A stretch of 40,027 nucleotides of DNA from positions 1 to 40,027 of the IMG/VR virus record IMGVR_UViG_3300049561_000014. The stretch is one strand, 5' to 3'. The notes beneath the pieces were generated by a model that saw nothing but the letters and a program-made list of their open reading frames with translations, made no database searches and was not told the DNA's origin. Of the stretch, positions 4,550 to 33,674 are shown one piece after another; position 1 is the first letter of the stretch; each line of letters starts with the position of its first letter. The DNA comes from a virus. Position numbers and translations under genes: made by a program.

Positions 4550-5500
4550 ATGGCAAGACAGCAAAGAGCAGATGATCGCGATGGGCGTGACAACCGCGGG
4601 CTCAATGATGACATCGGTGATGGCGAGATAGTACCCGCGGGCCAAAGCGATAGCGCTCTCACGGCCATCACTCGTGGTGAAGTGGACATGCAGGTGAGCA
4701 CTGCCAAGCGCTACCCGCGGAGCATTGCACGATTTCAAAAAAGCGCGCTCTCCATGGTGACGGCTGACAAAGATACGGCAGCATCATGCTTCTATACGCT
4801 CCCGCGCAAGAAGAAAGACACGAAGACGGGCGTACAAATCTCCGTGACCGGGCCATCGGTGCGGCTGTCTGAGATTGCGGCCGCAACCTGGGGAAATCTA
4901 CGAATTGAAGCTCGACCAATCGAGGAGAGCGACACCACGGTCACTGCTCAGGGCACCGCGTGGGATATGGAAAACAATGTATTAGTGCGGTTAGAGGTCA
5001 AGCGCAGGATCACTGATAAGGACGGCCGAAGGTTTAGCGAAGACATGGTAGCCATGACGACGAACGCTGCAACGAGCATCGCAAAACGTAATGCTATCTT
5101 CAATGTAATTCCTCGCTCGTACATTCAGCAGCTTGATACTGCCGCTCGGGGCTGTGCTATCGGGGATATCAAGACGCTACCCGCGCGGCGTGACGAATCT
5201 ATAGCCTGGTACAATAAGGTAGGAGTCACCACGGACCGCATACTTGCAGCACTCGGCAAAGATGGGCTTGCCGATATAGACCTGGAAGATCTTGAAACGC
5301 TCTATGGGTGGGGTACCGCACTCAAGGATAAGCAGGCGACGATAGAGGAGATATTCCCGCCTCCAATAATGACAGCAGGCACTGTCAAAGTGAGCAAGAA
5401 CGGCGAGGCTGCTCAGAAGCCTACGGCGCCAGCGGCAAATGAAGAGCCACCTCATAATCCGATCACTGGCGAAGTCATTGACCCCAAAGCAGGCTTCTAG
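4550..5500 (+). CDS. Putative phage recombination / strand-annealing protein
   Basis: 316 residues, two bases after the nuclease gene. The first 35 residues are Asp/Arg/Gly-rich and probably disordered. The core (about 50-200) contains a conserved-looking stretch, TTNAATSIAKRNAIFNVIP, reminiscent of phage proteins that sit beside exonucleases and are often listed as recombination-related. The C-terminal 60 residues are Pro/Ala/Glu-rich and end in ITGEVIDPKAGF. A role as annealing partner of the nuclease (the Exo-Bet arrangement) is an inference from position. I cannot assign it to RecT, Erf, Sak or Sak4, and no Walker motif is present. Confidence 0.5.
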   Translation: MARQQRADDRDGRDNRGLNDDIGDGEIVPAGQSDSALTAITRGEVDMQVSTAKRYPRSIARFQKSALSMVTADKDTAASCFYTLPRKKKDTKTGVQISVTGPSVRLSEIAAATWGNLRIEARPIEESDTTVTAQGTAWDMENNVLVRLEVKRRITDKDGRRFSEDMVAMTTNAATSIAKRNAIFNVIPRSYIQQLDTAARGCAIGDIKTLPARRDESIAWYNKVGVTTDRILAALGKDGLADIDLEDLETLYGWGTALKDKQATIEEIFPPPIMTAGTVKVSKNGEAAQKPTAPAANEEPPHNPITGEVIDPKAGF

Positions 5501-8622: not shown

Positions 8623-8826
8623 ATGACCACCGACGGCCCCAATCGCAGGCAATTCGGTTCACGCCAGGCACGCAACCGCCAGCAAAGCGAAATAAATAGG
8701 TGTGCCAATACTATGGCGAAGGCGATCAAGAAAGAGAAACTAGCCGCAGAAGTACACTCGCAAGATTGCGTTGGGCAAATCATAAATACGAGTTTTGATA
8801 AGGTGTTTGGGAAGGCAAAGCCATGA
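8623..8826 (+). CDS. Unknown 67-residue basic protein
   Basis: Basic and Gln/Arg/Lys-rich (RRQFGSRQARNRQQ, then AKAIKKEKLA). No clear ribosome site precedes it, but it starts two bases after the preceding gene and ends in an ATGA overlap with the next. Basic composition and small size would fit nucleic-acid or protein binding. I recognise no domain. Confidence 0.5.
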   Translation: MTTDGPNRRQFGSRQARNRQQSEINRCANTMAKAIKKEKLAAEVHSQDCVGQIINTSFDKVFGKAKP

Positions 8827-9812
8827 GCGGCAAGACTAAGATAGCTTGGTGCACGGGCACATGGAATGTGATAGCGGGATGCTCCAAGGTCAGCTCGGGA
8901 TGCAAAAATTGCTATGCTTTGCGCATGGCTTGGCGTCTTGCTCATAGCTCAAATGCCAAAATACGAGAGACTTATAAAGGGCTGGTACGACACGGATGCG
9001 AGCAGAGTTGCAATAGCTGCGAGCATAACTCTTGTGGTTTCGAGGAACCATATACCTGGACCGGCGAAGTTCGCTGCCTACCCGAGGAACTATCAAAGCC
9101 ACTGCACTGGAAAAAGCCGAGATGCATTCTCGTTTGCTCGATGTCCGATTTGTTTAACGAGAAAGTGTCTAACGGGTTTATCGTCGACGTGTTTAATGTG
9201 ATGAACGCGTGCCCACAACACCAGTTCATGATTTTGACGAAACGCAGCAAGAGGATGAGGGAGTGGTATAGGTGGGTATCGACACCGTTCATTGGATCCC
9301 CAAACCAGGGGTGTTTGCCTGCGATGTGTGATAGATGGGAATGGCCATTGCCTAATGTATGGATTGGCGTCAGTGTTGAAGACCAACCCACCGCCGATGA
9401 GCGCATATCGGACTTGCAGGCGACGCCCGCGGCGAGGAGATTCGTGTCGCTGGAGCCGTGTCTGGCCCCGGTCATATTCAAAGACGAGTGGCTAATGTCA
9501 TGCCATGATTGCGGCAATGAAGGCTCGATAGCTTATGACTCAAAACCAGGAACTATCGCGGGAAGATTATGCTTAGATGCCTGCGAAAAACGCGGCAATC
9601 CGGCATCTATTTCGCTCGTGATTATGGGCTGCGAAAGCGGCCCTCACGCTCGCCCCATGGAGCTTGATTGGGCGAGGCAAGTCCGCGATGCCTGCGTCGC
9701 CGCCAAGGTGCCGTACTTTTTAAAGCAAGCGAACATTGGCGGCAAGCTCGTAAAAATGCCTGAGCTAGATGGCAAGGCGTGGGATCAACTTCCCGAGGTG
9801 AAGCATGGCTAG
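8823..9812 (+). CDS. Phage Gp37/Gp68-family protein (DUF5131)
   Basis: 329 residues. The opening TGTWNVIAGCSKVSSGCKNC is the family hallmark: Trp-Asn, then three spaced cysteines before Tyr-Ala. Further on, WTGEV, FVCSMSDLF-like (here LVCSMSDLFNE), FMILTKRS and WIGVSVED are in the usual order, followed by RRFVSLEPC, IMGCESG and VPYFLKQ. An extra Cys/His cluster (about 59-73) and another near 228-255 look like inserted zinc knuckles. The family is widespread in phages and islands. The cysteine trio suggests a metal or Fe-S centre, but the biochemical role is not established as far as I know. Confidence 0.85.
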   Translation: MSGKTKIAWCTGTWNVIAGCSKVSSGCKNCYALRMAWRLAHSSNAKIRETYKGLVRHGCEQSCNSCEHNSCGFEEPYTWTGEVRCLPEELSKPLHWKKPRCILVCSMSDLFNEKVSNGFIVDVFNVMNACPQHQFMILTKRSKRMREWYRWVSTPFIGSPNQGCLPAMCDRWEWPLPNVWIGVSVEDQPTADERISDLQATPAARRFVSLEPCLAPVIFKDEWLMSCHDCGNEGSIAYDSKPGTIAGRLCLDACEKRGNPASISLVIMGCESGPHARPMELDWARQVRDACVAAKVPYFLKQANIGGKLVKMPELDGKAWDQLPEVKHG

Positions 9813-9821
9813 GCGGCGGCA

Positions 9822-10961
9822 ATGACTGGCCTCACGCTCGAGCTATTTTCATGCTCAGGCGGCCTCGCCGAAGGCCTCCGCCGCGCCGGTATCATAATCG
9901 ACATGGCCTTCGATTTTGATATCGACGCCTGCGATAGTTATGAACGCAATCTGGGCCATCGGCCCGTACGAATGGACGTACGCGACTTACTGCGTATGGT
10001 CCGCGGCGGGTGGTCACCGGGAGAAATTGGGTTGGCTGTTTTTGATCCTCCGTGTACCCCCTGGAGCCGCGCCGGCAAGCGCCAGGGCCAAGCCGATAAG
10101 CGCGACATGCTCGACGTAACCGTCGAGCTCATCGACTTGTTGCGGCCGCGCTCGTGGATCATCGCCAATGTGCCAGGGCTTGATGACTCGGCCAATTGGG
10201 AGGCCGTAGTAAAACCTATCATTGGCGGCATGGCATCAAGGTGTGGCTATTGTGTCGATTATGCCAAGCTCAATTGTGCGGATTATTCAGTTCCGCAAAA
10301 GCGCATAAGACCATGGTGGTTTGGACATCCGACGGGCACGCCCTGCATTGAATGGCCGCACCCGACGCACTGCAAGCCGCCCGTGCTGCCGGGCTGCGGT
10401 TTGAAGTCCTGGGTCACGTGTCGCGACGCCTTAGCGCATTTGCCGATCGAAGAACTTGGGCGACCGATAAATATCCGCAAGCGCGGCACACTAGCGACAA
10501 GGCGGGCTGGCAAAAAGCCTAGGGCAAGCAATCTTGATAGCCCGGCCGGTGTTGTGACTTGCTCACCGCACCAGGGCGATGGCACCGTGTTGCTGATAAC
10601 ATCACCAGGACGAGATGGTCGCAATGGCGAAAGTCAGCGAGGCAATGCAAATGCGATAGTGCTCAGTGAGCGAGCTGCGGCTATTTTGCAGGGCTTTCCC
10701 GAGAGCTGGCAATTTTGCGGCCGCACGAAGCGGACACGATGGTCCCAAATCGGCCAAGGGATGTGTCCGCCAATGGCTCATGCTGTCGGCAATAGTATCA
10801 AAAAATGGATGGACTATGAGCACCGAGTAGTTATGGCACGTGCGAACTGTAAACCAAGTGCCCGCGATGCTGCACGCGCAATGGGCCTAGACCCTAAAGC
10901 TCTGGAGTCACAAGAAAATCAGGATTGGGAAATCGGCAATCTGGGGCCGAAAGAGTCATGA
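9822..10961 (+). CDS. DNA C5-cytosine methyltransferase with altered motif VI
   Basis: 379 residues. Motif I is LELFSCSGGLAEGL (AdoMet binding, residues 6-19), motif IV FDPPCTPWSRAG with nucleophile Cys78, motif VIII QKRIR (159-163), and motif X GQGMCPPMAHAVGNSI. Motif VI, normally ENV with the glutamate that assists catalysis, reads ANV (115-117). The rest appears intact. The enzyme would methylate cytosine to shield phage DNA from restriction, but loss of the glutamate should impair it unless the residue is replaced by another. The target sequence cannot be read off. The stop overlaps the next ATG. Confidence 0.9.
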   Translation: MTGLTLELFSCSGGLAEGLRRAGIIIDMAFDFDIDACDSYERNLGHRPVRMDVRDLLRMVRGGWSPGEIGLAVFDPPCTPWSRAGKRQGQADKRDMLDVTVELIDLLRPRSWIIANVPGLDDSANWEAVVKPIIGGMASRCGYCVDYAKLNCADYSVPQKRIRPWWFGHPTGTPCIEWPHPTHCKPPVLPGCGLKSWVTCRDALAHLPIEELGRPINIRKRGTLATRRAGKKPRASNLDSPAGVVTCSPHQGDGTVLLITSPGRDGRNGESQRGNANAIVLSERAAAILQGFPESWQFCGRTKRTRWSQIGQGMCPPMAHAVGNSIKKWMDYEHRVVMARANCKPSARDAARAMGLDPKALESQENQDWEIGNLGPKES

Positions 10962-12038: not shown

Positions 12039-12266
12039 ATGACCACCGACGCTGAAATCCGCGCGCACTTCGATGACCAGCGCAAGGCCAATCTCGTGGC
12101 CGAGCTCGAACGCAACGGTTGGAGCCTCACAGCTACAGCGCAAGCGCTAGGCGTGGCCATCAATTACTTGCAGTGGATGATTAAGCACTACGGGCTGAGT
12201 GAGCAATACGCAAAGAGCGGGCACCCGGGGCGGGGCAACCCGCACTCAAAAAGCGAGAACACTTGA
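12039..12266 (+). CDS. Second Fis-type helix-turn-helix protein
   Basis: 75 residues. AELERNGWSLTATAQALG followed by VAINYLQWMIKHYGL is again a Fis-type HTH, preceded by a short charged helix and followed by a Gly/Pro/Arg tail (GHPGRGN). The pattern of helix, HTH and GRPGR-like tail matches the protein at 11643-11849, suggesting old paralogues. Both may act on the repeats in the surrounding A/T-rich gaps. The stop overlaps an upstream in-frame ATG of the next gene. Confidence 0.7.
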   Translation: MTTDAEIRAHFDDQRKANLVAELERNGWSLTATAQALGVAINYLQWMIKHYGLSEQYAKSGHPGRGNPHSKSENT

Positions 12267-12295
12267 AACGTGGTAATATTTCAAAGGAGCATGTC

Positions 12296-12790
12296 ATGAA
12301 AAAATTACTTGCGTTATTTGTTTGTATTAGCGGCTGTGCCCATATGCAGCATGCGAATACTCCTTATGACCACCGGCTCATTCGCTGGTGTGAGGCACGG
12401 CCAATCACGGTTAACATCTGGGGTGACCTCGCGGCGAACGAACAGGCAGCGGTGTCCGAGGCAGTAAGGCTATGGACTCAAGCTACTATCCGCTCCGGTG
12501 ATCTGGATACTACGCGGCGCCGAGTCGAGATCATTGAAGCCGATCGCTTTGCTGATATCGCGGTATCGCGCAATGGTGGTGATTGGGGCGAAACTGAGCT
12601 AGCGTATAACCCCGAGAACGGCTGCATCTTGCATGCCCATGTAGAGATAGGCCCGTCGCTCGATAGTCTTGGTGAGCAAGTACTATTGCGAGCCATAACC
12701 CACGAAATGGGGCATGCGCTGGGCTTGACGGATAGCTACACGCCAGAGGATATAATGCAGAGCGGGTATCGGGTATCTATTGCACCATGA
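12296..12790 (+). CDS. Lipoprotein zinc metalloprotease, matrixin-like
   Basis: 164 residues. A short Lys start and hydrophobic stretch end in ISGC (residues 11-14), a lipobox, so the mature protein should be lipid-anchored at Cys14. The C-terminal part has His126-Glu127-x-x-His130-x-x-Gly133-x-x-Asp136 (THEMGHALGLTD) and a later DIM with Met144 as the Met-turn, the metzincin signature of matrixin-like proteases. The domain is small but complete. AAAGGAGC supports this ATG over one at 12263. An exported lipoprotease in a phage without visible lysogeny genes is odd. It could act on the host envelope or on rival phages. Confidence 0.8.
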   Translation: MKKLLALFVCISGCAHMQHANTPYDHRLIRWCEARPITVNIWGDLAANEQAAVSEAVRLWTQATIRSGDLDTTRRRVEIIEADRFADIAVSRNGGDWGETELAYNPENGCILHAHVEIGPSLDSLGEQVLLRAITHEMGHALGLTDSYTPEDIMQSGYRVSIAP

Positions 12791-12798
12791 GGTCTAAC

Positions 12799-13146
12799 AT
12801 GAAAACATTATTTTTTCTATCATTGCTCATAACGGCGGTAGGGTGTGGTTCCGAAAAGTGCCAGGCATATATCGGCGAATGGGCCTGCACTGTCTCGACT
12901 GAAAATAGCCCAGATACCTATCTTGCATTAGACAACCACGCCGAAGAATGCGGAGATTATCAAATTTCCTATTACAAATATGTACGTACAACGATTAATT
13001 ATACTATGGATGAATCAAATATCAATGGCCAGATAATTTATCGTTATAACGGACCCACTCCCACAATTGTTGAAGGGACAATTGCATGTGTGCCGAATCA
13101 CACCGGCCAGCAAATCATTCCCACGACCACACCGAACACCAAGTAG
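12799..13146 (+). CDS. Small lipoprotein of unknown function
   Basis: 115 residues. MKTLFFLSLLITAVGCGS is a typical signal peptide with lipobox AVGC. Four or more further cysteines (EKCQAY, EWACTV, EECGDY, IACVP) suggest disulfides in the periplasm or outside. The middle is Tyr/Asn/Thr-rich and beta-like. It follows the metalloprotease directly, and the two lipoproteins probably work together. GAGG precedes this ATG. An earlier ATG at 12787 overlaps the protease stop but lacks a ribosome site. Its 3' end overlaps the convergent minus-arm gene by 49 bases. Confidence 0.7.
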   Translation: MKTLFFLSLLITAVGCGSEKCQAYIGEWACTVSTENSPDTYLALDNHAEECGDYQISYYKYVRTTINYTMDESNINGQIIYRYNGPTPTIVEGTIACVPNHTGQQIIPTTTPNTK

Positions 13147-16180: not shown

Positions 16181-19100
16181 TCATTTTATGGCCTTCTTTT
16201 CAAGTGTTTCAATGCGTTTGACGAGGTCTTTAAGTATCTTGTCGTGGTCTGCGATTATAGTCTCGTCGGCATCAGCACGCGCCTTGGCTTCGGCGATAAT
16301 TGCGTCTCCGCGCTTACTTACTTCCTGCACGGCTTGTACCAATACAGGTATTAGTGCTGTTCGTATTACTGTCTTAGTATCATTATCGGGAGACGAACTA
16401 ACGGCGTCTGGGAATATTCCTTCAAGGTCTTGCGACGTAAATCCTATTGGATGTAAATAACTATCTTTGCCGTATTTTTTAAAACGATACTCTATAAGTT
16501 TAATCGCATTAATTACATCAAGCCCTTTGACCTTTGTGGGCGCTATATCTTGTTTAAGGCGTTCATCTGAAATATCAGCCAGCGCAAATACGCCAGCTAC
16601 GGTTTGAAGATAACCCGTGAGGCCATCACCACCATCATAAGCGCCTAAGAAATAATTAGTTCCTATGGGGTCATTTTCTCCGCAACGTATCTTGATTCCC
16701 CGTCGATTTTCATTATTGCCATCATTGTGAAAATTGGCCGCATAACCACTAGCAAGATTGGCGTTAACTATTATCTGTCCCGATGTTCCTGCCTGTAGTA
16801 TAGTATTTGCTCCACCAGACGCAGAGAAATCACCCCCAGCACTTAATAATTGTTTACTGGCGTTTGTGCCCAGAGCGCAAGAGGCGTTGAGGCCAGGAAG
16901 AGTCAATACCTTCCCTTCGGATAACGTCATTGCCGTTACCCAGGTAGTACCGTCCCAACTACCCCAATTGAAATGTCCTAAGCCACTTCCTGACGCGCAG
17001 CAAAATGCACTATTCTCATAGGTACTCCCCGACATATCAACGCCAAAGCCTGATTTTGTAGTGGTAACATTTTGGTCGTAAAATAAAACCTTGATTCCTG
17101 TTGTTGCCCCGAATGATATTGGGGCATTCTGATAGGATGAGTTTATATTCAATCGTACTACTTTAGCATAACCAGAAGCATCGAGCTGTAATATAGATGA
17201 TGCTGCGGCAGCCTGAGAATAGGGGATATTTATAACGTTCTTGCCGTCATCAGTACCCAAAAGTTGCGAAGCCGTAGCCCACGGCAACTGTAAATGAACT
17301 CCGGCAAATTTAAATATCTCGGTATCAGTTCCATTACCGCGCCACAGGATCGAACCGCTGAGCCAGCCCGTCTCGTCCTTTAACCGTAATTTGATTCCCC
17401 AATCCCCGTTTAGGCCGCAGTATATCTGATCGAGATAACTTCCCGCCGCTGGCGTGCCATATATCGTCTGACAGCCAGTAGCGTTGAGCTGCACTATCTT
17501 ATTAGCTCCACCCGTAGTGCTGCATCCTATCGTGAGCACATAAGCAGCATCAGTCGCCGTCACGTAGCGGTTGCCATCCGCTGGAATGCCATAGGTGCCC
17601 GCGAGCGCGGCTTTCTCGCCTGCCGTAGGATCGTTGGCGTTGCTGTGCGAAGCTGTGACTGCGGCGGCGACGGCACTGTCCGTATTTGTCGCATTGACAG
17701 GGAGCCCGTCAGCATTTGCCTTAAGCATCTGCCCAGAGGTCGCGCTCGAAGTGTGGTCGCTCGTCGAGGTGATGGCGTGCTGACGAGCATGCAGCGCGTT
17801 CAACTGTGTCGTAGTTAGGTGCTGATGATCATTGGTTGCACCTCCAAGTAATCCAGTCAGTGCCTCATGATTTTGTGTGGTGGTGGAAAACTTAAACCAA
17901 CGTCCCGGCGCCGGTGGGGTGATGTCGTGCGGCACGATAGTGATGTTATCATCATCAGCTCCGGTACCAGCCGTGTCATACCTATAGATGGCGTCCTTGT
18001 CCTCGACCAGGCGCATATTTTTATCGGCTTCGGATGCACCATCGAGAGCGCGCAGCGCGGTTGTGGTCTGCACCCCAGCCTTGACCGGCCCCCCCATGGT
18101 GCTCACTGCGGTATCGACGTACAGCGTACTCGCGACCGTCGAGGTGCCGACGCCATGCACGTCCGTGGTGAGTCCGGAGTGAGTCGATACTGCACCGGAT
18201 GGCTCGGGCGTAATAGCCGCCACAAATTCACCATTGGAATCAGTAGCTGCATAAGCAAGGCTGGCTTGCTGTGGTATCCGCACCTTGCCGGTAGCTTTTA
18301 CTATTTTTAGCGCGGTAACGCCGCCGTCAGTTATGGCGCTACCTGCTGCCCCGGTGTCAGCCACTCGCAGGGTGACATCACCGGCGAGCTCCATCAAGCA
18401 AGCGGCATAACCTGCGGCGATGCGTCTGTGCTGTCCGGTACCATAGTTCCAATTAAATCCCCACCAGCCGTTATTGACAGCGTCATGTGATTGGACCGAT
18501 AAACCGCCTACCGAGAAAGCTTCAACATTAGTCGTAGATGCCAGGGACGCATGACCAACCGAGTCTATGCCCAGATATCCACCGTTCTGGTTTTTATGCG
18601 AGATTTGCTCGACATCCGTTACTGCGATTGCAGATGACGTTATATAGTTAGCCTCATCATTAATAATAGCGCTGGTTAAAATATAACCAGTAATCAAACC
18701 AGAACTATATATCAATCCCCGGTTGAGATTAAGGAAAAATTTTACATAATCATTATATGCTGGAACAGATACAATATTACCATTTTGATCAAATATCCTG
18801 CCGGTCATCCAACCGCTATGATCAAAGATAGATATACAACCAGGTAAACCGACAGTATAGTCATCTGTGACCGTACCCTTTTGACCCACCGTGAAGAAAA
18901 TTTCCTTACTAAGAGAATTATTTGGTGGCAGGTATCCATCGGGCATAGCTCCTGGCACGCCAAAGGCATCATATCGCACATCCCACGGCACGATCTCGAA
19001 CATATTATTTGTATCTTCTCGCTGGATCCACAACATTCCATTCGGCCCTACCGTCTTAAATACATTACTAGTAATGGCACCTCCGGGTATCAGCACTTGG

Positions 19101-21430
19101 CCATCTTCATCCACACGTAAAGAGGATGTAGCAGGTACTGATGGATCATCTACGGTTACGTTGAGCAAGTCGGTCGTAACACCAGTACTTAAGGTCTTGC
19201 TGGCTATTACCTGTTTTGTTACGAGCGAGCCTGTAGTTGTCCCACTGGCATAAAATTGTTGTATTACCTTAAGGTTATCTATGTATGCCGGGTAGGCTTC
19301 GTACCCGGTTGTTGCATAGCTGCGTGCGATATAAACGCGAAAATACCTTGCTGTGGTGGGCGCTAAAAACGCTCCACAATACCCACCGCTTGCCGTGCTA
19401 TCTGATATCATCCACGTATAAGTTTCATTACCCGAGCCGATGCCCGGCGTTGCCGCGCTGATATATGTTTTTGTAGAATCATACCATAATATCCTAGCGG
19501 TTACCAAAACACCGTGAAAAGTCGGAGTCGGCCCGTTCTCTATGTAGTATTTGATCGTACCCGATAAGGTGTAATTACCACTTGCCTCGCATGGATAAAA
19601 ATCACTCACTAGGTGTGGCCAACCGGATTGTGAGCCGTTAGTTACCTTTAAACAAACATCGCCCGATTGTTGGTCGGAGGTCTCCAAGAAAAAACACACT
19701 CCCCACGACGTGCCACCTAGCCCGGCTCGGTCATAACCGACTCCGCTAGCGCCATACCAGCAATCGGGCGGCACATCACCTGCAACAGCCGGTGGGGATG
19801 TTACTTGAAAATCACCGTTAGCGATGATGTTAGAATGTAGCGTATCATTATCTACATGCGTCGGACCGACAAGAGCAGTAGCGGTGATCGCCTGTGCACT
19901 AGCCACAGCTCGATTACCCGCACCATCAATGACGATGATTTTTATATAATAGGTGGTCCCTGGAATTAGCCCACCGATTATAAATTTATTGGTTCTACCT
20001 CTCGCAATGAAGTTATCGGCTGACGGTGTAAAATCCGCAACGGTACTAAGATATAATTCACTATATGCCCATTCGGTCGAAGTTGGCTCGTCATAGGTTA
20101 CAGTAATACCACCAAGTGTTGCGGCAGTATTAAGAGAGGTGGCGCCATCCACGGCTATGAGTTTTTTGTTGGCTCCCACTCCTCGCCGCGCTTCAAGATT
20201 GAGCCACTTGAGATAACCGCCACTTGGTTTGCCTCTCAGATCTAGCGTGGTACTGTTACCGTCTGCTCTGAAAGTATCTTGTATCCCAACAACGGCCAAC
20301 GTTTGAGCGGTATCAAATATCTTTGGAGCTGGCAGTAGCGTTGCGGGGAACGAATATAAATCCCCGAGCTCAGAATGTGGGTAGCATATCAGCTCAGCGC
20401 TCCCCAGCAACAACGGGTCTTTGAGGTCCAAGAGAACAGCGTTGGCAAAGTTAGTTGCATCAGTGCTGTTGTCTATCTGTGAGGTGGCGGCCTCTGCTAT
20501 CTCACTTGCTTTTCTTCCGTAAGCAGAAATGCTATCTGCGTTATCCCGCGTTACACTCGACCGCTCCCCCGTGGCTGGATCTACTTTGTACACCACGGTC
20601 ACGACGTTACGAACATTGGTGCCATCAACCGCCGCGCTCATCCAAGACTTTATAATCAATGGCGAGATAGTAGCATCTGCTGATGTCTTTGTTCGATCAA
20701 TATTATAGAGAGTGAGTTCATAGGCGCTATCCGCTACCGACCATTTATAGCGTAATTCCCATCCGATTTGATCGGATAGCGCGCGTATGGCCTCCGCAAT
20801 TGATGATTTATCCTGTTGCCACTTCTTGATATTCCAACCGGGCGAGTCATACTCGAGCGTAACGGCCGGGCTAGACCAATCATCAAGTATATCCTGTATA
20901 ACTGACTCGACACTCTGACCGCCGTCAGTGCCATAAATAGAGGTGTTCTCAATCTGGCGATCTTGCAGCTGCCCGCCCAAGTCCCGCGCCTCGATGCCGA
21001 TTGCATCACCGGATGATAAATCAAGGCGATCGATTACCCCGTCGAATTTGAGAAACCAGGCAGCATCGGCTGGTTGAGAGTCTACCGGTGAGAGCGCCAA
21101 ATATAACCTTATGCCGCGCCCTACCGCCAGCAGCTCAACGAAGTCGCCACCAACGAGATTGAGCGGTGATTTTAGAGCCAGCGGCGAAAGCGAATAATCA
21201 CCAAAATCTCTCGTAACGACGGCCGTCAGAGAGGCGCAGGGATCGTCAACATTCTCCGAGCGATCAATGGAATCTACTAAATCACCGATGCCCGGGTAAT
21301 CCGATAGGTTCACCCAGCCGGTCCCCCACCCCACGTCCGCGGCCCCCGGCTGCTCAAAGCACAAGGCTACGTGGGTATCGTATTGACCAATAGCATAAAG
21401 TGCGTCGTCCTGTGCCGTAGTAGGCAGCAT
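16181..21430 (-). CDS. Giant tail hub/fibre protein with C-terminal S74 chaperone
   Basis: 1749 residues. Residues 1-400 look like the hub or tip protein that follows the distal tail protein in siphoviruses. About 410-520 is a fibronectin type III-like domain (TYDEPTSTEWAY, GLIPGTTYYIKIIV), and 530-700 a carbohydrate-binding-like beta region (ANGDFQVTSPP). A long Ser/Thr/Gly-rich fibre follows. The last 131 residues are an intramolecular chaperone (Peptidase_S74): SDERLK carries the Ser1621-Lys1626 dyad that should cut the chaperone off after trimer folding, followed by a terminal coiled coil. It is the likely receptor-binding protein. Confidence 0.85.
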   Translation of the reverse strand: MLPTTAQDDALYAIGQYDTHVALCFEQPGAADVGWGTGWVNLSDYPGIGDLVDSIDRSENVDDPCASLTAVVTRDFGDYSLSPLALKSPLNLVGGDFVELLAVGRGIRLYLALSPVDSQPADAAWFLKFDGVIDRLDLSSGDAIGIEARDLGGQLQDRQIENTSIYGTDGGQSVESVIQDILDDWSSPAVTLEYDSPGWNIKKWQQDKSSIAEAIRALSDQIGWELRYKWSVADSAYELTLYNIDRTKTSADATISPLIIKSWMSAAVDGTNVRNVVTVVYKVDPATGERSSVTRDNADSISAYGRKASEIAEAATSQIDNSTDATNFANAVLLDLKDPLLLGSAELICYPHSELGDLYSFPATLLPAPKIFDTAQTLAVVGIQDTFRADGNSTTLDLRGKPSGGYLKWLNLEARRGVGANKKLIAVDGATSLNTAATLGGITVTYDEPTSTEWAYSELYLSTVADFTPSADNFIARGRTNKFIIGGLIPGTTYYIKIIVIDGAGNRAVASAQAITATALVGPTHVDNDTLHSNIIANGDFQVTSPPAVAGDVPPDCWYGASGVGYDRAGLGGTSWGVCFFLETSDQQSGDVCLKVTNGSQSGWPHLVSDFYPCEASGNYTLSGTIKYYIENGPTPTFHGVLVTARILWYDSTKTYISAATPGIGSGNETYTWMISDSTASGGYCGAFLAPTTARYFRVYIARSYATTGYEAYPAYIDNLKVIQQFYASGTTTGSLVTKQVIASKTLSTGVTTDLLNVTVDDPSVPATSSLRVDEDGQVLIPGGAITSNVFKTVGPNGMLWIQREDTNNMFEIVPWDVRYDAFGVPGAMPDGYLPPNNSLSKEIFFTVGQKGTVTDDYTVGLPGCISIFDHSGWMTGRIFDQNGNIVSVPAYNDYVKFFLNLNRGLIYSSGLITGYILTSAIINDEANYITSSAIAVTDVEQISHKNQNGGYLGIDSVGHASLASTTNVEAFSVGGLSVQSHDAVNNGWWGFNWNYGTGQHRRIAAGYAACLMELAGDVTLRVADTGAAGSAITDGGVTALKIVKATGKVRIPQQASLAYAATDSNGEFVAAITPEPSGAVSTHSGLTTDVHGVGTSTVASTLYVDTAVSTMGGPVKAGVQTTTALRALDGASEADKNMRLVEDKDAIYRYDTAGTGADDDNITIVPHDITPPAPGRWFKFSTTTQNHEALTGLLGGATNDHQHLTTTQLNALHARQHAITSTSDHTSSATSGQMLKANADGLPVNATNTDSAVAAAVTASHSNANDPTAGEKAALAGTYGIPADGNRYVTATDAAYVLTIGCSTTGGANKIVQLNATGCQTIYGTPAAGSYLDQIYCGLNGDWGIKLRLKDETGWLSGSILWRGNGTDTEIFKFAGVHLQLPWATASQLLGTDDGKNVINIPYSQAAAASSILQLDASGYAKVVRLNINSSYQNAPISFGATTGIKVLFYDQNVTTTKSGFGVDMSGSTYENSAFCCASGSGLGHFNWGSWDGTTWVTAMTLSEGKVLTLPGLNASCALGTNASKQLLSAGGDFSASGGANTILQAGTSGQIIVNANLASGYAANFHNDGNNENRRGIKIRCGENDPIGTNYFLGAYDGGDGLTGYLQTVAGVFALADISDERLKQDIAPTKVKGLDVINAIKLIEYRFKKYGKDSYLHPIGFTSQDLEGIFPDAVSSSPDNDTKTVIRTALIPVLVQAVQEVSKRGDAIIAEAKARADADETIIADHDKILKDLVKRIETLEKKAIK

Positions 21431-25655: not shown

Positions 25656-26021
25656 TTATAAATGTAGCGATACTAACGCGATAGTTAGACCGTCATCACT
25701 GTCATAATCAAGAAATATTTTGCCGAGGTCGCCCGCGCCAATTTGATTGAAGAGCTCTTGGCGGAGTGGACCGATTACTGCTATGGCCCCATTTGCCACC
25801 GTGCGCGCAATGGTACCGGTTCGGTTGTTTTTGTTTGCCACACTCGTCACGGTAACGGTGCGCGAAGCCCCACCCGAAGCATTCTTAGCTAATAGGACCA
25901 CCGAGCCGTCATTAATAAAATAGCTACCGTTGGCTTGTGTCACTGCATTGAAGGTAGCCGCAGCCAATGTCCCACCATTGGCGGCAACGACTTGAGGCGT
26001 AAGCATATCTCTTGCTGCCAT
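25656..26021 (-). CDS. Virion structural protein, Ig-like (paralogue of 26032-26391)
   Basis: 121 residues. Shares with its neighbour a common pattern: N-terminal MA-R-x-x-L-x-x-x-V-A-A-x-G-G, a GSYFINDGSVVLLAKNASG strand pair, and FNQIGAGDLGKIFLDY near the end. The fold looks like a small beta sandwich. Proteins like this are found among head decoration and tail components. The position before the tail tube leaves either open. The tandem pair points to gene duplication. Confidence 0.6.
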   Translation of the reverse strand: MAARDMLTPQVVAANGGTLAAATFNAVTQANGSYFINDGSVVLLAKNASGGASRTVTVTSVANKNNRTGTIARTVANGAIAVIGPLRQELFNQIGAGDLGKIFLDYDSDDGLTIALVSLHL

Positions 26022-26031
26022 AGTATCCCCT

Positions 26032-26391
26032 TCAAGGGTTAAGCTGGATTGCTGCTACGGTTATGGTGGTCACGGCGCTATAGTCAATAAACACATGACC
26101 AAGATCAGCGGCCCCGGTTTGATTGAATAAGTCAGGGCGAAACGGCCCGAAAGTGGCGGTTTTACTGGCCGCTACCGCCGTTATGTCGGTAGCTCTGCTC
26201 CGTCCGTCGGAATCCGCGACGCTGGCAATGGTAACATTGATAGAATCTCCAGAACCATTTTTAACTTGAATGATAACATTGCCATTATTGACGATGTAGC
26301 TTCCGAGCGCGTCTGCCACACCATAGGCGGTATCCGCTAGAGCACCTCCGTAAGCCGCTACTGACTGTAGCGCGATGTTAGACCTAGCCAT
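26032..26391 (-). CDS. Virion structural protein, Ig-like (paralogue of 25656-26021)
   Basis: 119 residues with the same layout as the next gene: LGSYIVNNGNVIIQVKNGSG, a TVADSDGR-like loop (here SVADSDGRSRA), FGPFRPDLFNQTGAADLGHVF and a final Thr/Val strand. A similar phage family carries GNTILHVKNGSG and an IGPFP-like loop, as I recall, and is thought to be structural. Copies have diverged considerably, so the duplication is not recent. It overlaps the upstream gene by eight bases. Confidence 0.6.
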   Translation of the reverse strand: MARSNIALQSVAAYGGALADTAYGVADALGSYIVNNGNVIIQVKNGSGDSINVTIASVADSDGRSRATDITAVAASKTATFGPFRPDLFNQTGAADLGHVFIDYSAVTTITVAAIQLNP

Positions 26392-28403: not shown

Positions 28404-29375
28404 CTAGGTGTTGTTGATTTTGATCAAGCGCTGCGGACGACCGAATGCTGGTGCACCACGGCAAGTAACCGCATACTCAACTTGTCGAAGATTAGTCCAC
28501 ATCTCCGAACCTTCGCCGATTTCCTCGAGCCGTACACCTTCACGGTCCTGCCAGATGAGGCCGCGTACCGGTGCATCAAGGATACCAATATAATAATCAA
28601 CCGCGCTATCGAGATCGAGCAGCGGTTCACGGATGAGTTCAATACTCGGCGAAAATCCTACATTGCTCGTTTGCGAGATGATGGCGGCGAGTACAGCGGT
28701 GCGCATTGGCACCTCGAGCGCGGCCGGATGAAGTATAAAAATCTGCCGGCCATAGTCGCGATTCAGCGGGATATTAGCCTCATCGGGTATGGTATACATA
28801 ACCGTAAGCGCACTGCCAATATCTGTGGTGAGTTGCGCTACAGACGTACCCGTGCCTGTGAGCAAATTGCTCCAGGTTGCGGTCTGCTTGCCGCGCGCTG
28901 CATGCGTCGCAGAAAAGAAAGCTTCGGCCGTAGCTCCGACCTTGAGATAACAAGTATCGGTCGTACCGGCGACTAGCTTAGCGACAAGCAATCCATCCGG
29001 TTTGCGCAGGGCGCGCACCGCCGCATCACGTATGCGTTGCTGATAACCGCCCACCTTCTCATCTGCGAGATCATCACGCCTGAAAATGAGGGCACCAGCA
29101 TATGTCTTGTTTTTGACCTCATAGCCGGGTCCATCACTACCCGTTTCCGCAGTCAGTTCAGTGTCGGTGAGGGGATGGATTGGCATACCATCCACGAATT
29201 CATCCATATCATAAACTTCTGATAGCCAGGCATAATTCTCTTTGTCGCTAGTACTACTCATCCTTGAGGCGATGCGCTCAATAAGCAATTGCTCACGTGG
29301 TGTCATTAGCGCTTCGATGAACTCGCCACGCACATCTTTACGCAGCATCTGAGGGGCGAAGATTGGATTTGCCAT
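28404..29375 (-). CDS. Major capsid protein, Mu gpT-like
   Basis: 323 residues, close to Mu gpT in length. Landmarks include an N-terminal RIASRMSSTSDKENYAWL (the Mu gpT family has SxxxxExYxWLG near here), then a VKNKTYAGALIFRRDDLADE strand pair in the middle and a final QVEYAVTCRGAPAFGRPQRL block. It folds as an HK97-type shell subunit. Unlike many HK97-fold proteins there is no long N-terminal delta domain, since scaffold is supplied by the upstream polyprotein. A good AAGGAGAT site precedes the ATG. Confidence 0.85.
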   Translation of the reverse strand: MANPIFAPQMLRKDVRGEFIEALMTPREQLLIERIASRMSSTSDKENYAWLSEVYDMDEFVDGMPIHPLTDTELTAETGSDGPGYEVKNKTYAGALIFRRDDLADEKVGGYQQRIRDAAVRALRKPDGLLVAKLVAGTTDTCYLKVGATAEAFFSATHAARGKQTATWSNLLTGTGTSVAQLTTDIGSALTVMYTIPDEANIPLNRDYGRQIFILHPAALEVPMRTAVLAAIISQTSNVGFSPSIELIREPLLDLDSAVDYYIGILDAPVRGLIWQDREGVRLEEIGEGSEMWTNLRQVEYAVTCRGAPAFGRPQRLIKINNT

Positions 29376-29403: not shown

Positions 29404-31254
29404 TTAGAGCTTCGCCCAAACGCCTTGACACTGGACGACACAATATGCTGATGAAGAGCAACCCATAAGGGAAATTCCATCTCCCTTTAGGCTAGTACCT
29501 TTGGTTAGGTTTATATCACCATCCGCCGCGGTATTGAGGCTCACAATAGTCCCAGTCGAAGTAGTGCAGTTACCAATAATTGTGTCGGCATTACCTGCAT
29601 CAGTCGGGGTAATGGTGAGGTCCACGCTCGCATCGGCGCCCACATAAACGAAACGGAATAGGCAACCGGTAGCAGTGCTTGCAGGCGGTAATACGATATT
29701 ATGAGTATCGAGGCCAGCGGAAACAGTAACCATCTTACCGCAGTCCTCAAGCCCTAAGGTCGTCTGACCTGTTATAGCTTTGATCGGCATTTGAAGTCCA
29801 TTGCCGATAATGAGATGTTCGTGACTATCGGTGGTATCGAAAGTTAGCATAGTTGTGGCGCCGGTCGAGCCAAGCACTAAGCCGGTTGCAGAATTATCGG
29901 CTGAGCTATTCAGCAGGATCGAGCTCGCGGCCGTACCAAATGTGAGCGCTCCGGCTGCACCGCTTAGGGTCAAATCATCGGCGAAAGTAACAGTACCGAC
30001 AGCCACACTAAGTGCGAGGGCTCCGGCATAGCCGCTTATCGTCAATTTGCCCGCATTGGTGCCGGTCGAGAGGCGCAATAAGGATGTATTGCCGCTCGAT
30101 CCAATATCCAAGGCGGTAGTATCGCCATCCCCAACGACGATTGATGCGGTGCTATCGGTAAAGGTTATGGCTCCCGCACCTCCTCCCGAGAGGGTCAAAT
30201 CGCCGGTGAGCGTCAGTGGGTCGGTGGCTGAGTAATAATACCGCGCTTGCATGACAGGAGAGATATAGATCCACCCAGAAGTACTTGAAATATATTCAAG
30301 CATCACACCGGCGATCGGTTCATTGGTTCCTTGGGTAGATGATACCGTATCATCGGCTGACGCATAGACAATGGAACCTACCTGCGTTTGCGCCATTCCG
30401 ACCCCGACGAATTTACAGAGAACCTCACCAGAGACTCTAATCCAATAATTCCCACTTGCGCCGCTGGATTTGGTTTCCTGCGCTACACCAACGACGCCAT
30501 GATTACTGGCGCTTGCCTCTGCCGGATGAGCAAGTCCAGTGGAGTCAATCATTACAAGACTTCCAGAATAGATCGTGTGGCTTGCCTTCATGAGATAAGC
30601 CTTAACTGATCCGCCTCCCGCAAAGTTCTTGCATTCTGTGGCCCGCGCGGCCGTAAGTGCGGCATACGCGCTACCTGTAAAGAGTAAAGATAATAGAAAG
30701 GCTATGCCTGCGACTGCACCGGTCAACCCGAGTCGATTCCTAAGTTCCTTGCGAGTTGTTCGATTACCATCTTGGAGTACAGCCATTGGCTCCATAATCA
30801 CTTTGCCATCGGGGGTGATCGTCCGCTCATATTCAACATGATCGACGTTATCGCCGATCGCCTGCATATCGCGGCATCGCTCAGGACTTTGGCCAAAAAT
30901 CTTGGCCAATGAGCGTTCCTCAATGCTTGACTGCGCTCGTTTCAAGATCTGTGCGGGTAGCGTATCTCCAGCACCCGTCAGCCGCTCAATATGGGCAATA
31001 ATCGGTAAATCCTTTAGCCATTTTTCGAGATCATCCGCGTTCATGATTATGGCAGCCTGTTTAAAGCCAAAGAGTGCCGCAGGCGCGATGCGATCGCGGT
31101 ACTGCCCGAGTAATGCTTCTTTGCGTTGATCATCTAAAGCCTTCGCATTAGCTTCAAGTGCAACATTACGCGCATTCGCTGCCGCAAGATCCGCCTTGAG
31201 CTTGTCAACGCCCTCGGCGTCGGCTTGGGCAGCTAAAATCTTTGTTTCCGACAT
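29404..31254 (-). CDS. Internal in-frame product: scaffold onward (lambda Nu3-like start)
   Basis: At codon 308 of the protease gene an ATG (31254, MSETKILAAQ) follows GAGGAG at six bases, the best ribosome site in the region. This is the arrangement of lambda C/Nu3, where the scaffold is made from an internal start in the protease frame. The product would be 616 residues if read to the same stop. A weaker possible start at 30786 (MAVLQDG, GGAG three bases upstream) lies just before the hydrophobic segment and would give a decoration-like protein with its own signal-like N-terminus. Confidence 0.65.
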   Translation of the reverse strand: MSETKILAAQADAEGVDKLKADLAAANARNVALEANAKALDDQRKEALLGQYRDRIAPAALFGFKQAAIIMNADDLEKWLKDLPIIAHIERLTGAGDTLPAQILKRAQSSIEERSLAKIFGQSPERCRDMQAIGDNVDHVEYERTITPDGKVIMEPMAVLQDGNRTTRKELRNRLGLTGAVAGIAFLLSLLFTGSAYAALTAARATECKNFAGGGSVKAYLMKASHTIYSGSLVMIDSTGLAHPAEASASNHGVVGVAQETKSSGASGNYWIRVSGEVLCKFVGVGMAQTQVGSIVYASADDTVSSTQGTNEPIAGVMLEYISSTSGWIYISPVMQARYYYSATDPLTLTGDLTLSGGGAGAITFTDSTASIVVGDGDTTALDIGSSGNTSLLRLSTGTNAGKLTISGYAGALALSVAVGTVTFADDLTLSGAAGALTFGTAASSILLNSSADNSATGLVLGSTGATTMLTFDTTDSHEHLIIGNGLQMPIKAITGQTTLGLEDCGKMVTVSAGLDTHNIVLPPASTATGCLFRFVYVGADASVDLTITPTDAGNADTIIGNCTTSTGTIVSLNTAADGDINLTKGTSLKGDGISLMGCSSSAYCVVQCQGVWAKL

Positions 31255-32175
31255 GGGTTTCTCCTCTAAGGCGCCGACGCTCGGCGCGGTTATCTGACTA
31301 AGACTAGGGGTCGATATAGTGGCTATTGCCGCGTGAGCGGTGGCCGAGCTCGTGATGCTATCGATGAGTCCGCGATGCATAGCCTCTCCGGCAAACCAAA
31401 GCTGGCCGGTCGATACTTTCTGCGCATCGTCTATCGTCATGTGCCTGCCGCGCGCTACCGCCGCGGTAAACATCGTCGCGGCCTCATCTACAATGCGTTG
31501 TTGGTCAGCTAGCTGTGCGGTTGTAAGACTATCGCCAGCTCCGGCGCCCTTGAGCGGGGAGCTCCGCAACACATGCACCTTGATACCGGCTGCCGCGTCC
31601 GCGGCGCTCGCATCCTCGATCACCGAGTAAACACCGATTGAGCCGACCATCGCCGCTTCATTAGAGCTCAACCTCGAGGCTTGCGATCCAATCCAGTATG
31701 CAGCAGAGGCAATCAAATCACTCGCATGGGCGATAGTAGGCTTTAGGCCGGATGCCGCGGCAACATCATCCGCGAGCTCCTGCACTCCAGCGAGCGATCC
31801 CCCGGGTGAGTCGATATCGAGAGAGATAGATTTTACCGCATCATCCTCGACGGCTGCACCAAGGGCGCGCTGTATCGCGAGCGTGCTTGTGGCTGGCATG
31901 CCGAGCAGATCAAAGATGCAGGGTACTTCCTTGAGTATCACACCGGACACACTGATATGTGCAACGCCGTCTCGCAGATCATAGAGCGGCCGGTCGGTGT
32001 TAGACCGCGCTCCCGCTTTTGGCCTTGCAGCAGTTGCTTCTTGAGCAGCTTTCAGCGTATCCGCTGGTATTTTTTCGAGCGCCAGGGCGATAGAATCGGC
32101 GAGGGCTTGCAGTTGTATCGGGTCCATAGCCCATTGGCGGGACGTTAAATAGCTGATAACTGCTCGCGAATTCAT
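29404..32175 (-). CDS. Head maturation protease / scaffold / decoration-like polyprotein
   Basis: 923 residues. Residues of about 60-290 are an S49 (SppA/lambda gpC-type) protease: DSPGG at 122-126, nucleophile Ser157 in ASAAYW, and Lys209 in SPLKG, 52 residues apart as in lambda gpC (S166/K218, from memory). About 308-470 is a helical scaffold. Residues 484-504 are a signal-peptide-like hydrophobic segment ending GSAYA. About 508-640 resembles DUF2190-type capsid cement proteins (VMIDSTGLAHPA, GVVGVAQET). The last 280 residues are Ser/Thr/Gly beta repeats like fibre stalks. The start overlaps the portal stop as ATGA. A cement/fibre module fused to the protease is unusual. Confidence 0.8.
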   Translation of the reverse strand: MNSRAVISYLTSRQWAMDPIQLQALADSIALALEKIPADTLKAAQEATAARPKAGARSNTDRPLYDLRDGVAHISVSGVILKEVPCIFDLLGMPATSTLAIQRALGAAVEDDAVKSISLDIDSPGGSLAGVQELADDVAAASGLKPTIAHASDLIASAAYWIGSQASRLSSNEAAMVGSIGVYSVIEDASAADAAAGIKVHVLRSSPLKGAGAGDSLTTAQLADQQRIVDEAATMFTAAVARGRHMTIDDAQKVSTGQLWFAGEAMHRGLIDSITSSATAHAAIATISTPSLSQITAPSVGALEEKPMSETKILAAQADAEGVDKLKADLAAANARNVALEANAKALDDQRKEALLGQYRDRIAPAALFGFKQAAIIMNADDLEKWLKDLPIIAHIERLTGAGDTLPAQILKRAQSSIEERSLAKIFGQSPERCRDMQAIGDNVDHVEYERTITPDGKVIMEPMAVLQDGNRTTRKELRNRLGLTGAVAGIAFLLSLLFTGSAYAALTAARATECKNFAGGGSVKAYLMKASHTIYSGSLVMIDSTGLAHPAEASASNHGVVGVAQETKSSGASGNYWIRVSGEVLCKFVGVGMAQTQVGSIVYASADDTVSSTQGTNEPIAGVMLEYISSTSGWIYISPVMQARYYYSATDPLTLTGDLTLSGGGAGAITFTDSTASIVVGDGDTTALDIGSSGNTSLLRLSTGTNAGKLTISGYAGALALSVAVGTVTFADDLTLSGAAGALTFGTAASSILLNSSADNSATGLVLGSTGATTMLTFDTTDSHEHLIIGNGLQMPIKAITGQTTLGLEDCGKMVTVSAGLDTHNIVLPPASTATGCLFRFVYVGADASVDLTITPTDAGNADTIIGNCTTSTGTIVSLNTAADGDINLTKGTSLKGDGISLMGCSSSAYCVVQCQGVWAKL

Positions 32176-33674
32176 GCGGCTTGCTCCTCGCCTTGGTTTT
32201 CGTTCATTGGCATCGATTCAGCCGGGTGTTCCTGGTTGCGTTGCTCGCGCGTTGGAAGTATCGGGGTCGGTACGCGCGCGGGCAGCTCGGTGTCAGGATC
32301 GAAGTCATCAAACTCTAGGGCTTCGCGGATAGCGTTTTCCGTGCGGCCGTCACGCCGCACAAGCCCAACGTTCGCCGCGTTAATCATGAGCGGGATACGA
32401 TCGGCCCAGTTAGCAGTTGGTAAATTGCGAACGACCAAGGTTGGTATATTTACGGCATCGCCATAATTGAGCTGCACGATCCGCTTTACTGGCGACCACC
32501 CATCATAGCCAAGGTTCCAGCCCGCGGCGATGAACCGTGCATGCGCGAGCTCTGCGAGATGATATTTACCTTGCTGAGTCGAACCCAAAGCATAAGATCC
32601 GCTCTTGCCGGTGAGTCCCAAGAGCATAAATGCCGCCGAGACGTTAAAGGCGATATCTTGATTGCACTGCGAAATAGCGGCCTCAATATTACTGCCATCA
32701 CTGATCGTCGCCCCCTCCCATTTGAAGGTCCAACCATTATCAAGTACAAGATAACCGCGGGCATTCGCGCGCATCTCTTCAAGTATTTTCTCTACGGCGT
32801 CAATATCATCATCTGTTGCAACCTCGGGAGCGATTGCAACCGGTACTGGTAATGCGAGGCGCTCATGCTTCATCGCAGCAAGCGTTTGAAACGCCATCTT
32901 CATCTTCCATGGGGCGTAGGCACTGCGCAGGATCGCGAAGCCCTCGAAGTTGGCACCGTCTTGATCCCAAGTCCAACGAAGCAACCGGTCTACAGGGATA
33001 GTCGGCCATCCGAGTTGCTCGGCATCAGAGCCATATAATTGCTGCACAATGCCAGCGATTTGAGAGGTCGATGTTTTAGATTGCAGCCATTGATAAACAG
33101 TCCAGCCGGGTACCTGATATATTCCCGTGGGCACGATTCCGCTACCGCCCCCGGGGTGCAGTGGGAATCTATCGGCCGGGATCGAACGGCTCTCGTCGGT
33201 CATCTCCGCGAGTGCAAAGCCGTTCATGCCATAATCTAAGATGATCCGCTTGGTGGCTTCGTGCCAGAGCAGACTATCTATGAGGCACCAAGTCATAAAG
33301 TCGGCGACCTCGCGGTCAATGGCGCTCGAGCTAGCGGGCTTGAAGCGCCATGTGCCAGCAAGCAGCGGCTCATATACATCGGCAAGAGATTGCCGTACGT
33401 GTAAATCCTTCATCATTTTTTGCGCAATGCCAGGCGTCCCAGGGCGGCCATACCATTTTGATCCGCGCAGCTCGGGATTCTGATCGATTGATTCAATGAA
33501 ACCTGAAGTGATTCGCGTTCCGGAACCACTTAATCGCTTACCGCGCTCTGCCCGCGCCATCCTCGAGTTGGCCGCGGCGGCCATAGCTATCCCGGTACCG
33601 ACTTGTGGGGCCAAAGAGGCAGGCCCCACAAGATTACCACCAACCAAGGCAAGCAATGCCGTGCTCCATACCAT
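32172..33674 (-). CDS. Portal protein, Mu gp29-like (DUF935)
   Basis: 500 residues, the usual size. GIAQKMMKDLHVRQSLADV near residue 85 and the central WTWDQDGANFEGFAILRSAY block, followed by WKMKMAFQ, are typical of the Mu-type portal family, as is a long C-terminal helical part. The dodecamer forms the DNA entry vertex. The start is uncertain: the first 30 residues are hydrophobic, lack a ribosome site and contain a strong hairpin (33605-33629). An internal ATG at residue 31 or 39 may be the real one. Confidence 0.8.
   Translation of the reverse strand: MVWSTALLALVGGNLVGPASLAPQVGTGIAMAAAANSRMARAERGKRLSGSGTRITSGFIESIDQNPELRGSKWYGRPGTPGIAQKMMKDLHVRQSLADVYEPLLAGTWRFKPASSSAIDREVADFMTWCLIDSLLWHEATKRIILDYGMNGFALAEMTDESRSIPADRFPLHPGGGSGIVPTGIYQVPGWTVYQWLQSKTSTSQIAGIVQQLYGSDAEQLGWPTIPVDRLLRWTWDQDGANFEGFAILRSAYAPWKMKMAFQTLAAMKHERLALPVPVAIAPEVATDDDIDAVEKILEEMRANARGYLVLDNGWTFKWEGATISDGSNIEAAISQCNQDIAFNVSAAFMLLGLTGKSGSYALGSTQQGKYHLAELAHARFIAAGWNLGYDGWSPVKRIVQLNYGDAVNIPTLVVRNLPTANWADRIPLMINAANVGLVRRDGRTENAIREALEFDDFDPDTELPARVPTPILPTREQRNQEHPAESMPMNENQGEEQAA
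33605..33629. other. Perfect 8-bp hairpin at the start of the portal gene
   Basis: GTGGGGCC (33605-33612) and GGCCCCAC (33622-33629) are exact complements around a nine-base loop. In the minus-strand mRNA this would be a very stable stem within the first codons of the portal frame. It could be a remnant terminator or attenuator between the HTH gene and the head genes, which would favour a portal start downstream of it. There is no clean T-run. Confidence 0.5.

Follow-up and report, generated by a model that had tools for sequence, protein, structure and literature searches.

By the textbook account, tailed phages build and decorate their heads in the cytoplasm. In lambda (C/Nu3) and Mu (I/Z), an S49-type head protease and a scaffold are encoded in one frame, with the scaffold started from an internal ribosome site and ATG, and the genes lie in the order portal, protease/scaffold, decoration protein, and major capsid protein. 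The same order and the same kind of nested gene are found in the window examined here, a 40,027-nucleotide stretch of viral DNA (IMG/VR record IMGVR_UViG_3300049561_000014, positions 1 to 40,027). However, whereas in lambda, Mu, and D3112-type phages the gene stops where the scaffold ends, the clade to which the window belongs appends the next gene, that of a head fibre, in frame. A single frame of 923 codons, read from ATG to stop with zero internal stops, thereby holds an S49 protease, a scaffold, a hydrophobic segment, a capsid decoration domain, and a fibre (Table 1). The phages with this fusion are a small clade of uncultured Mu/D3112-like tailed phages.

The fused frame and its hydrophobic segment

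Phage heads form within the cell, and an export signal on a head fibre is for that reason unexpected. The initial annotation had remarked that the hydrophobic segment of the frame, which has the top hydropathy of the whole protein (2.06 for the best 19-residue stretch, at residue 482), looks like a Sec signal peptide. This likeness is strongly supported, since the same segment forms the N-terminus of a free-standing fibre gene in three relatives, contigs L008, L009, and L014. The products of these genes begin with MKTFKTILSALAMALVLTFAVDAGA followed by TALSAAR (L008), MKTLRNILILVMAMAFIWDAHA followed by TELSAAR (L009), and MKTINRLLGVFALALVLVFAANAQA followed by TALSAAR (L014), behind ribosome sites of -5.6, -11.4, and -6.7 kcal/mol, respectively. 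Judged by their sequences, all three N-termini are Sec signal peptides of canonical form that include a signal-peptidase-I site. The internal segments of the three fused frames (the window, L007, and L045) align with them, having kept hydrophobicity while changing in sequence, and the equivalents of the AxA site are AYA in the window, AHA in L007, and VSA in L045. A basic n-region, an h-region, and an A-x-A site before the mature domain are thus recognized in the three separate genes and in the three internal copies.

The predicted mature start, TALSAAR or GALSAAR, lies at the exact place where family members without a signal begin: MAALSAAR in L017, MTALAA in L012 and L018, MAALTAAK in L048, and MALSSDR in L030, as well as LMLSAARNT, MTALTTDRNT, and MALTKDRNT in the named phages RC1, LESphi4, and Fc22, respectively. 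When the contigs were crudely scanned for signal peptides preceded by a ribosome site, the fibre gene was picked in all three unfused ones, and no contig yielded more than three genes. Descent of the hydrophobic segment from an N-terminal export signal is therefore strongly supported by sequence comparison, as the separate fibre genes start with a Sec signal peptide whose AxA falls where the signal-less homologues begin. A fibre is present in all six signal-bearing proteins, with 6-9 cysteines in base plus fibre; the signal-less homologues are without such a fibre and have 0-4 cysteines (L018 carries another extension). On a distant branch, 30% identical, the decoration domain of L027 and L028 also follows a leader that is basic and hydrophobic (MSKTKRKRLFNYGLIGLAVLFFGCLIMMGYVDPAAAAF) and is itself followed by a C-terminal extension, and thus a leader on the decoration protein may have arisen twice. 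The extension of the D3112-like decoration protein of L027 (4685-5698) is beta, and the identical sequence occurs in L028, which comes from a second metagenome.

The informative relatives came from scans of IMG/VR in which the capsid and portal proteins served as queries; the 923-aa protein itself, used as the query in direct scans of viral and genome collections, gave no match. Two further independent contigs carry the same single frame: L007 (4590-6953; 787 codons), whose capsid protein is ~83-84% identical to that of the window, and L045 (3844-6612; ~923 codons), whose portal is 60% identical over the alignment. One of these fused proteins is 67% identical to the window protein and the other 40%. 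In L008, L009, and L011 (= L014), there are instead two genes, one for a protease/scaffold of 467-503 aa and then one for a fibre protein of 354-458 aa. The initial annotation had held that relatives with separate genes would point to an assembly fusion. Such relatives do exist, but given the fusion in L007 and L045 it is an evolutionary event and not an assembly join.

Across the joint (codons 456-505), the window and L007 differ at 15, 8, and 33 first, second, and third codon positions, respectively, and pS is 0.79 versus a pN of 0.23; the reading frame there is thus translated and under purifying selection. An artefact of assembly, sequencing, or population (a lost stop codon, a chimera, or a decaying gene) would agree with the two-gene arrangement of some relatives, but is very improbable when the fusion is common to three contigs of such divergence, selection across the joint is strong, and no remnant of a stop, ribosome site, or start is left there. 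Such an origin was rejected, as the L007 and L045 fusions together with the selection contradict it.

The unfused proteases end in ...DGREVERDEVDAALGLN-stop (L008) and ...DGREIAKEDLDKVLGLN-stop (L011), and the window chain runs ...DGNRTTRKELRNRLGLT-GAVAGIAFLLSLLFTGSAYA-ALTAAR, with the protease tail complete. The fusion has cost the joint its stop codon, ribosome site, and start codon, as well as the basic residues of the signal peptide's own n-region. After the last DG, the net charge is +3, +3, and +2 in the fused proteins, as against -4, -2, 0, -1, -1, +1, and 0 in seven unfused ones. A basic protease tail is what the segment would need to stay a signal-anchor with its N-side cytoplasmic; the comparison is suggestive rather than statistical proof, since by the portal tree, which groups the three fused phages with 100/100 support, they are one clade. 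The protease and decoration trees do not settle whether the fusion had a single origin (AU p=0.058 and 0.36, respectively), and in the capsid tree L045 falls elsewhere, which fits an exchange of genes. A scan of genome contigs with the decoration alignment found no prophage.

Modules of the frame

The division of the frame into five modules, as originally proposed, is borne out by matches to PF01343, PHROG 53, and PHROG 1731, by the hydropathy peak, and by the recurrence of the same frame in L007 and L045. Residues 1-290 match Pfam PF01343 (E=2.8e-25) and PHROG 53, 'head maturation protease' (E=6.7e-57). Ser157 and Lys209, the latter in a PLKG motif, are conserved. We take these two residues to be the catalytic pair, and with its S49 domain, its Ser/Lys dyad, and its portal and capsid neighbours this module has the features of an S49 head maturation protease. 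The S49 protease gene of L011 (4089-5587) is split near 4750 (GVYTVVDD / RLIKTHVV) by an apparent frameshift, either a sequencing error or a broken gene.

The GAGGAG-ATG put forward in the initial annotation as an internal scaffold start has also held up. At the equivalent place, an ATG with a Shine-Dalgarno-like sequence is present in 10 of 10 related proteases, the duplex energies in the three fused frames are -9.1, -7.4, and -9.1 kcal/mol, and codon identity between the window and L007 is raised around it (18/26 at codons 286-330 versus 0.45 overall). A conserved in-frame start with a ribosome site thus follows the protease domain, so that the comparison with lambda C/Nu3 holds, and a nested scaffold with its own internal start, predicted to be a separate product, is supported.

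Residues 505-638 match PHROG 1731, 'virion structural protein' (E=7.5e-17), and an AlphaFold model built with 14 aligned base domains has a pLDDT of 88 and a pTM of 0.82. In a Foldseek search of the PDB with this model, capsid-structure chains of T1, HFTV1, Sf11, FCWL1, Pam3, XM1, and TW1 were found along with the base of phi29 gp8.5. The first 14 matches are all tailed-virus capsid-structure chains or the gp8.5 base, with modest E-values (best 8.7e-4) and with lambda gpD lower in the list. Among proteins of the viral library, a 'capsid fiber protein' matches best, and many of the other matches have 500-1300 aa and fibre-type or collagen-repeat names. A PDB sequence search with decoration profiles gave chance matches only. 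By its predicted structure, the domain, first described as cement-like, has a capsid decoration fold and is a head-fibre base; family and gene position suggest that it forms a trimer on the outside of mature heads.

Behind the base, 280 residues of beta repeats had been proposed. One ~55-residue internal repeat is clear (self-score 93; shuffles at most 62), but the remainder is low-confidence beta in AlphaFold. Structure prediction of the C-terminal half, as suggested at the outset, succeeded for the base domain but gave a pLDDT of 47 for base plus fibre, too poor for structure search. Residues 641-923 had no family match in the libraries, and residues 642-923 had no tblastn match in a partial library of 50,697 phage genomes. 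The C-terminal tips are of at least two kinds, one in the window and L009 and another, with six cysteines within ~50 residues, in L007, L045, L008, and L014. As the window and its sister L007 have close capsid proteins and differ in tip, it appears that tip modules are exchanged, as in adhesins. In L010 (3-656), a third kind of Cys-rich tip (CSSCDTECVIYYSY) is carried by a truncated fibre that precedes a related capsid gene.

Table 1. Features of the fused frame and its flanking head genes in the window
Feature	Coordinates	Strand	Content or evidence
Fused frame, 923 aa	29404..32175	minus	S49 protease + scaffold + signal/anchor segment + head-fibre base + fibre
S49 (SppA/lambda gpC-type) head protease, residues 1-290	31306..32175	minus	PF01343, PHROG 53
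Shine-Dalgarno GAGGAG of internal scaffold start	31261..31266	minus	duplex -9.1 kcal/mol
Predicted nested scaffold, Met308 (internal ATG) to residue 485	30721..31254	minus	GAGGAG-AAACCC-ATG at 31254
Met464 ATG (GTG in L007), weak candidate internal fibre start	30784..30786	minus	GGAG 3 nt upstream, duplex -5.2 kcal/mol
Protease/scaffold C-tail DGNRTTRKELRNRLGLT, net +3, at former n-region site of signal peptide	30721..30771	minus	
h-region + c-region, residues 486-505, ending AYA (leader-peptidase-like site)	30661..30720	minus	aligned with L008, L009, L014 signal peptides
Head-fibre base, predicted capsid decoration domain, residues 506-640	30256..30660	minus	PHROG 1731, AlphaFold, Foldseek
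Fibre, residues 641-923	29407..30255	minus	a pair of ~55-residue beta repeats and, behind them, a six-Cys C-terminal part
Portal gene, Mu-type, upstream neighbour	32172..33674	minus	PF06074 E=4.8e-27
Major capsid protein, Mu gpT / JBD30 type, downstream neighbour	28404..29375	minus	PF10124 E=9.7e-19; PDB 8rkc E=8.6e-14

Export of the fibre and the alternatives

In JBD30, procapsids carry no decoration protein, which binds outside and only after expansion (PMC11445458). With a scaffold inside the prohead and a decoration protein outside the expanded head, the two halves of the fused chain must be parted before assembly, and only cleavage at the AxA site gives back the exact native N-terminus of the base, a topological point of some weight. 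The reading favoured here, to which an even chance is given on the strength of these sequence comparisons, is that the segment acts as a signal-anchor, that leader peptidase releases the head fibre to the periplasm, and that the fibre coats heads at lysis. Two products would be translated, one of full length from Met1 (923 aa) and one from the scaffold start at Met308 (616 aa). In each, the segment would insert into the inner membrane and serve as a signal-anchor that leaves the protease/scaffold side in the cytoplasm, and leader peptidase would cut after Ala505, freeing residues 506-923 into the periplasm, where the fibre protein would fold and its cysteines could form disulphides. It would then coat finished heads when lysis opens the inner membrane; the stub of protease/scaffold would stay in the membrane and would start heads there. 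The initial annotation had offered two roles for the segment region, a cut by the phage protease and a tether of proheads to the membrane. Both are possible, and the signal-bearing separate genes of the relatives suggest that the role of an export signal fits better.

Several points weigh against export. The support for it and for the cleavage is comparative, and the charge comparison draws on a single clade of three. A periplasmic head protein has no way of reaching heads until lysis, an oddity in a cement protein, and a folded domain of 485 residues ahead of a signal-anchor is uncommon. Furthermore, cysteine content is weak evidence, as disulphides also form within virions, for example in the capsid proteins of JBD30 (PMC11445458).

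A fibre made from a start inside the protease tail (Met461 or Met464 in the window; Met460 or Met466 in L045), like lambda Nu3 within C, is considered unlikely. Its signal peptide would export the fibre as in the sister phages, and the full-length fusion would be a minor read-on product. The ATG at the Met461 position is invariant in all three fused frames, GGAG precedes both ATG464 of the window and GTG463 of L007, the ATG460 site of L045 is moderate (-7.2 kcal/mol), and ATG466 of L045 would give MSRDAWRKLVGFVAALFVILFAGDVSA, a good signal peptide; moreover, the same gene appears already to use one internal start, that of the scaffold. However, the joint sites in the window and L007 are weak (-2.1 to -5.2 kcal/mol, at a spacing of 3 nt) compared with the scaffold starts, random positions giving a median of -2.2 and a 5% quantile of -6.6 kcal/mol. 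The joint shows no rise in synonymous codon identity (9/31 at codons 466-510 versus 0.45 overall), and a Met is found at the same place in the unfused relatives L009 and L017. Codon identity and ribosome-site energies thus reveal no conserved RNA-level start element at the joint, and a separate fibre start, while possible, is not favoured. Somewhat less probable still is a head polyprotein without export, a cytoplasmic chain that the S49 prohead protease would cut at or near the segment, with the old signal as a cleavage handle and with protease, scaffold, and head fibre freed. The protease is present in cis with Ser157 and Lys209 conserved, head proteases of the S49 family process scaffold, and the family includes SppA, a signal-peptide peptidase that degrades signal peptides. 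Against this, a fibre fused to scaffold would sit inside the prohead, and decoration binds outside, after expansion (JBD30, PMC11445458); the signal peptides on the separate genes of the sister phages would also be left unexplained, as would the basic flank of the fused ones.

Returning to export, its fuller form is put forward more tentatively than the favoured reading above: the head fibre would be exported by host Sec, disulphide-folded in the periplasm, and mounted at lysis, and the fused form would tie head assembly to the inner membrane by anchoring the protease-scaffold in it. If this is true, part of a tailed virion matures outside the cytoplasm, where disulphide chemistry is accessible, and is joined at lysis, and the fused form is a rare case of a prohead protease/scaffold linked to the membrane. 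For testing export, one family offers a natural series of separate, fused, and signal-less forms.

Neighbouring genes and known head proteins

Together, the two flanking genes, a Mu portal and a gpT capsid protein, give the window a head module of the Mu/JBD30 type. Between the capsid and tail genes, two adjoining similar genes of ~120 aa (25656-26021 and 26032-26391, minus strand) are probably a tandem duplication; one of the pair matches PHROG 38030 (7e-7) and the tail family PHROG 16194 (2e-5). A tail protein of 1749 aa (16181-21430, minus strand) has a C-terminal Peptidase_S74 self-cleaving chaperone domain (E=2.2e-10). On the plus strand, 12263-12790 encodes a lipoprotein-like leader (...ISGC) and then a matrixin-type zinc protease motif, HEMGHALGLTD, with matches to PF00413 (E=2.4e-5) and PF12388 (E=5.5e-5), so that its product is probably a secreted phage metalloprotease; a second lipoprotein-like gene (12799-13146) adjoins it. 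A DUF5131 protein (8823-9812, plus strand; PF07505 E=3e-74) is encoded next to a C-5 cytosine methylase gene (9822-10961).

A decoration base with a fibre is an already known build, that of a head fibre. The decoration-fold base and spike of phi29 gp8.5, which serves host adhesion, resemble the base and fibre of the window (PMC7602432). Foldseek matches the window base to the gp8.5 base (6qyy) with a probability of 1.00 and a TM of 0.51-0.57, and to lambda gpD (1c5e) with a probability of 0.97. Unlike gp8.5 and gpD, which are free-standing and for which we know of no signal peptide, the base in the window is fused and preceded by a Sec-type signal, and the fibre of this clade is beta with Cys-bearing tips, unlike the gp8.5 spike.

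To our knowledge, no tailed-phage head protein has a Sec signal peptide. None was among the titles and abstracts listed in a full-text literature search on this question, and the terms signal peptide, signal sequence, periplasm, and secret- are all absent from a review of decoration proteins (PMC7602432). Among the 50,697 phage genomes, homologues of the base occur in more than 100 records, and of the records listed none aligned across the leader, which, as that library is partial, is absence of evidence. The 'capsid fiber protein' of D3112/LESphi4 and the proteins of RC1 and Fc22 (PHROG 1731) are direct sequence relatives of the base and occupy the same position between protease and capsid genes; at ~130-145 aa, they differ from the window protein in being without signal peptide, fibre, or fusion. 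The parts of the window protein are of known kinds and their combination is, as far as can be told, new.

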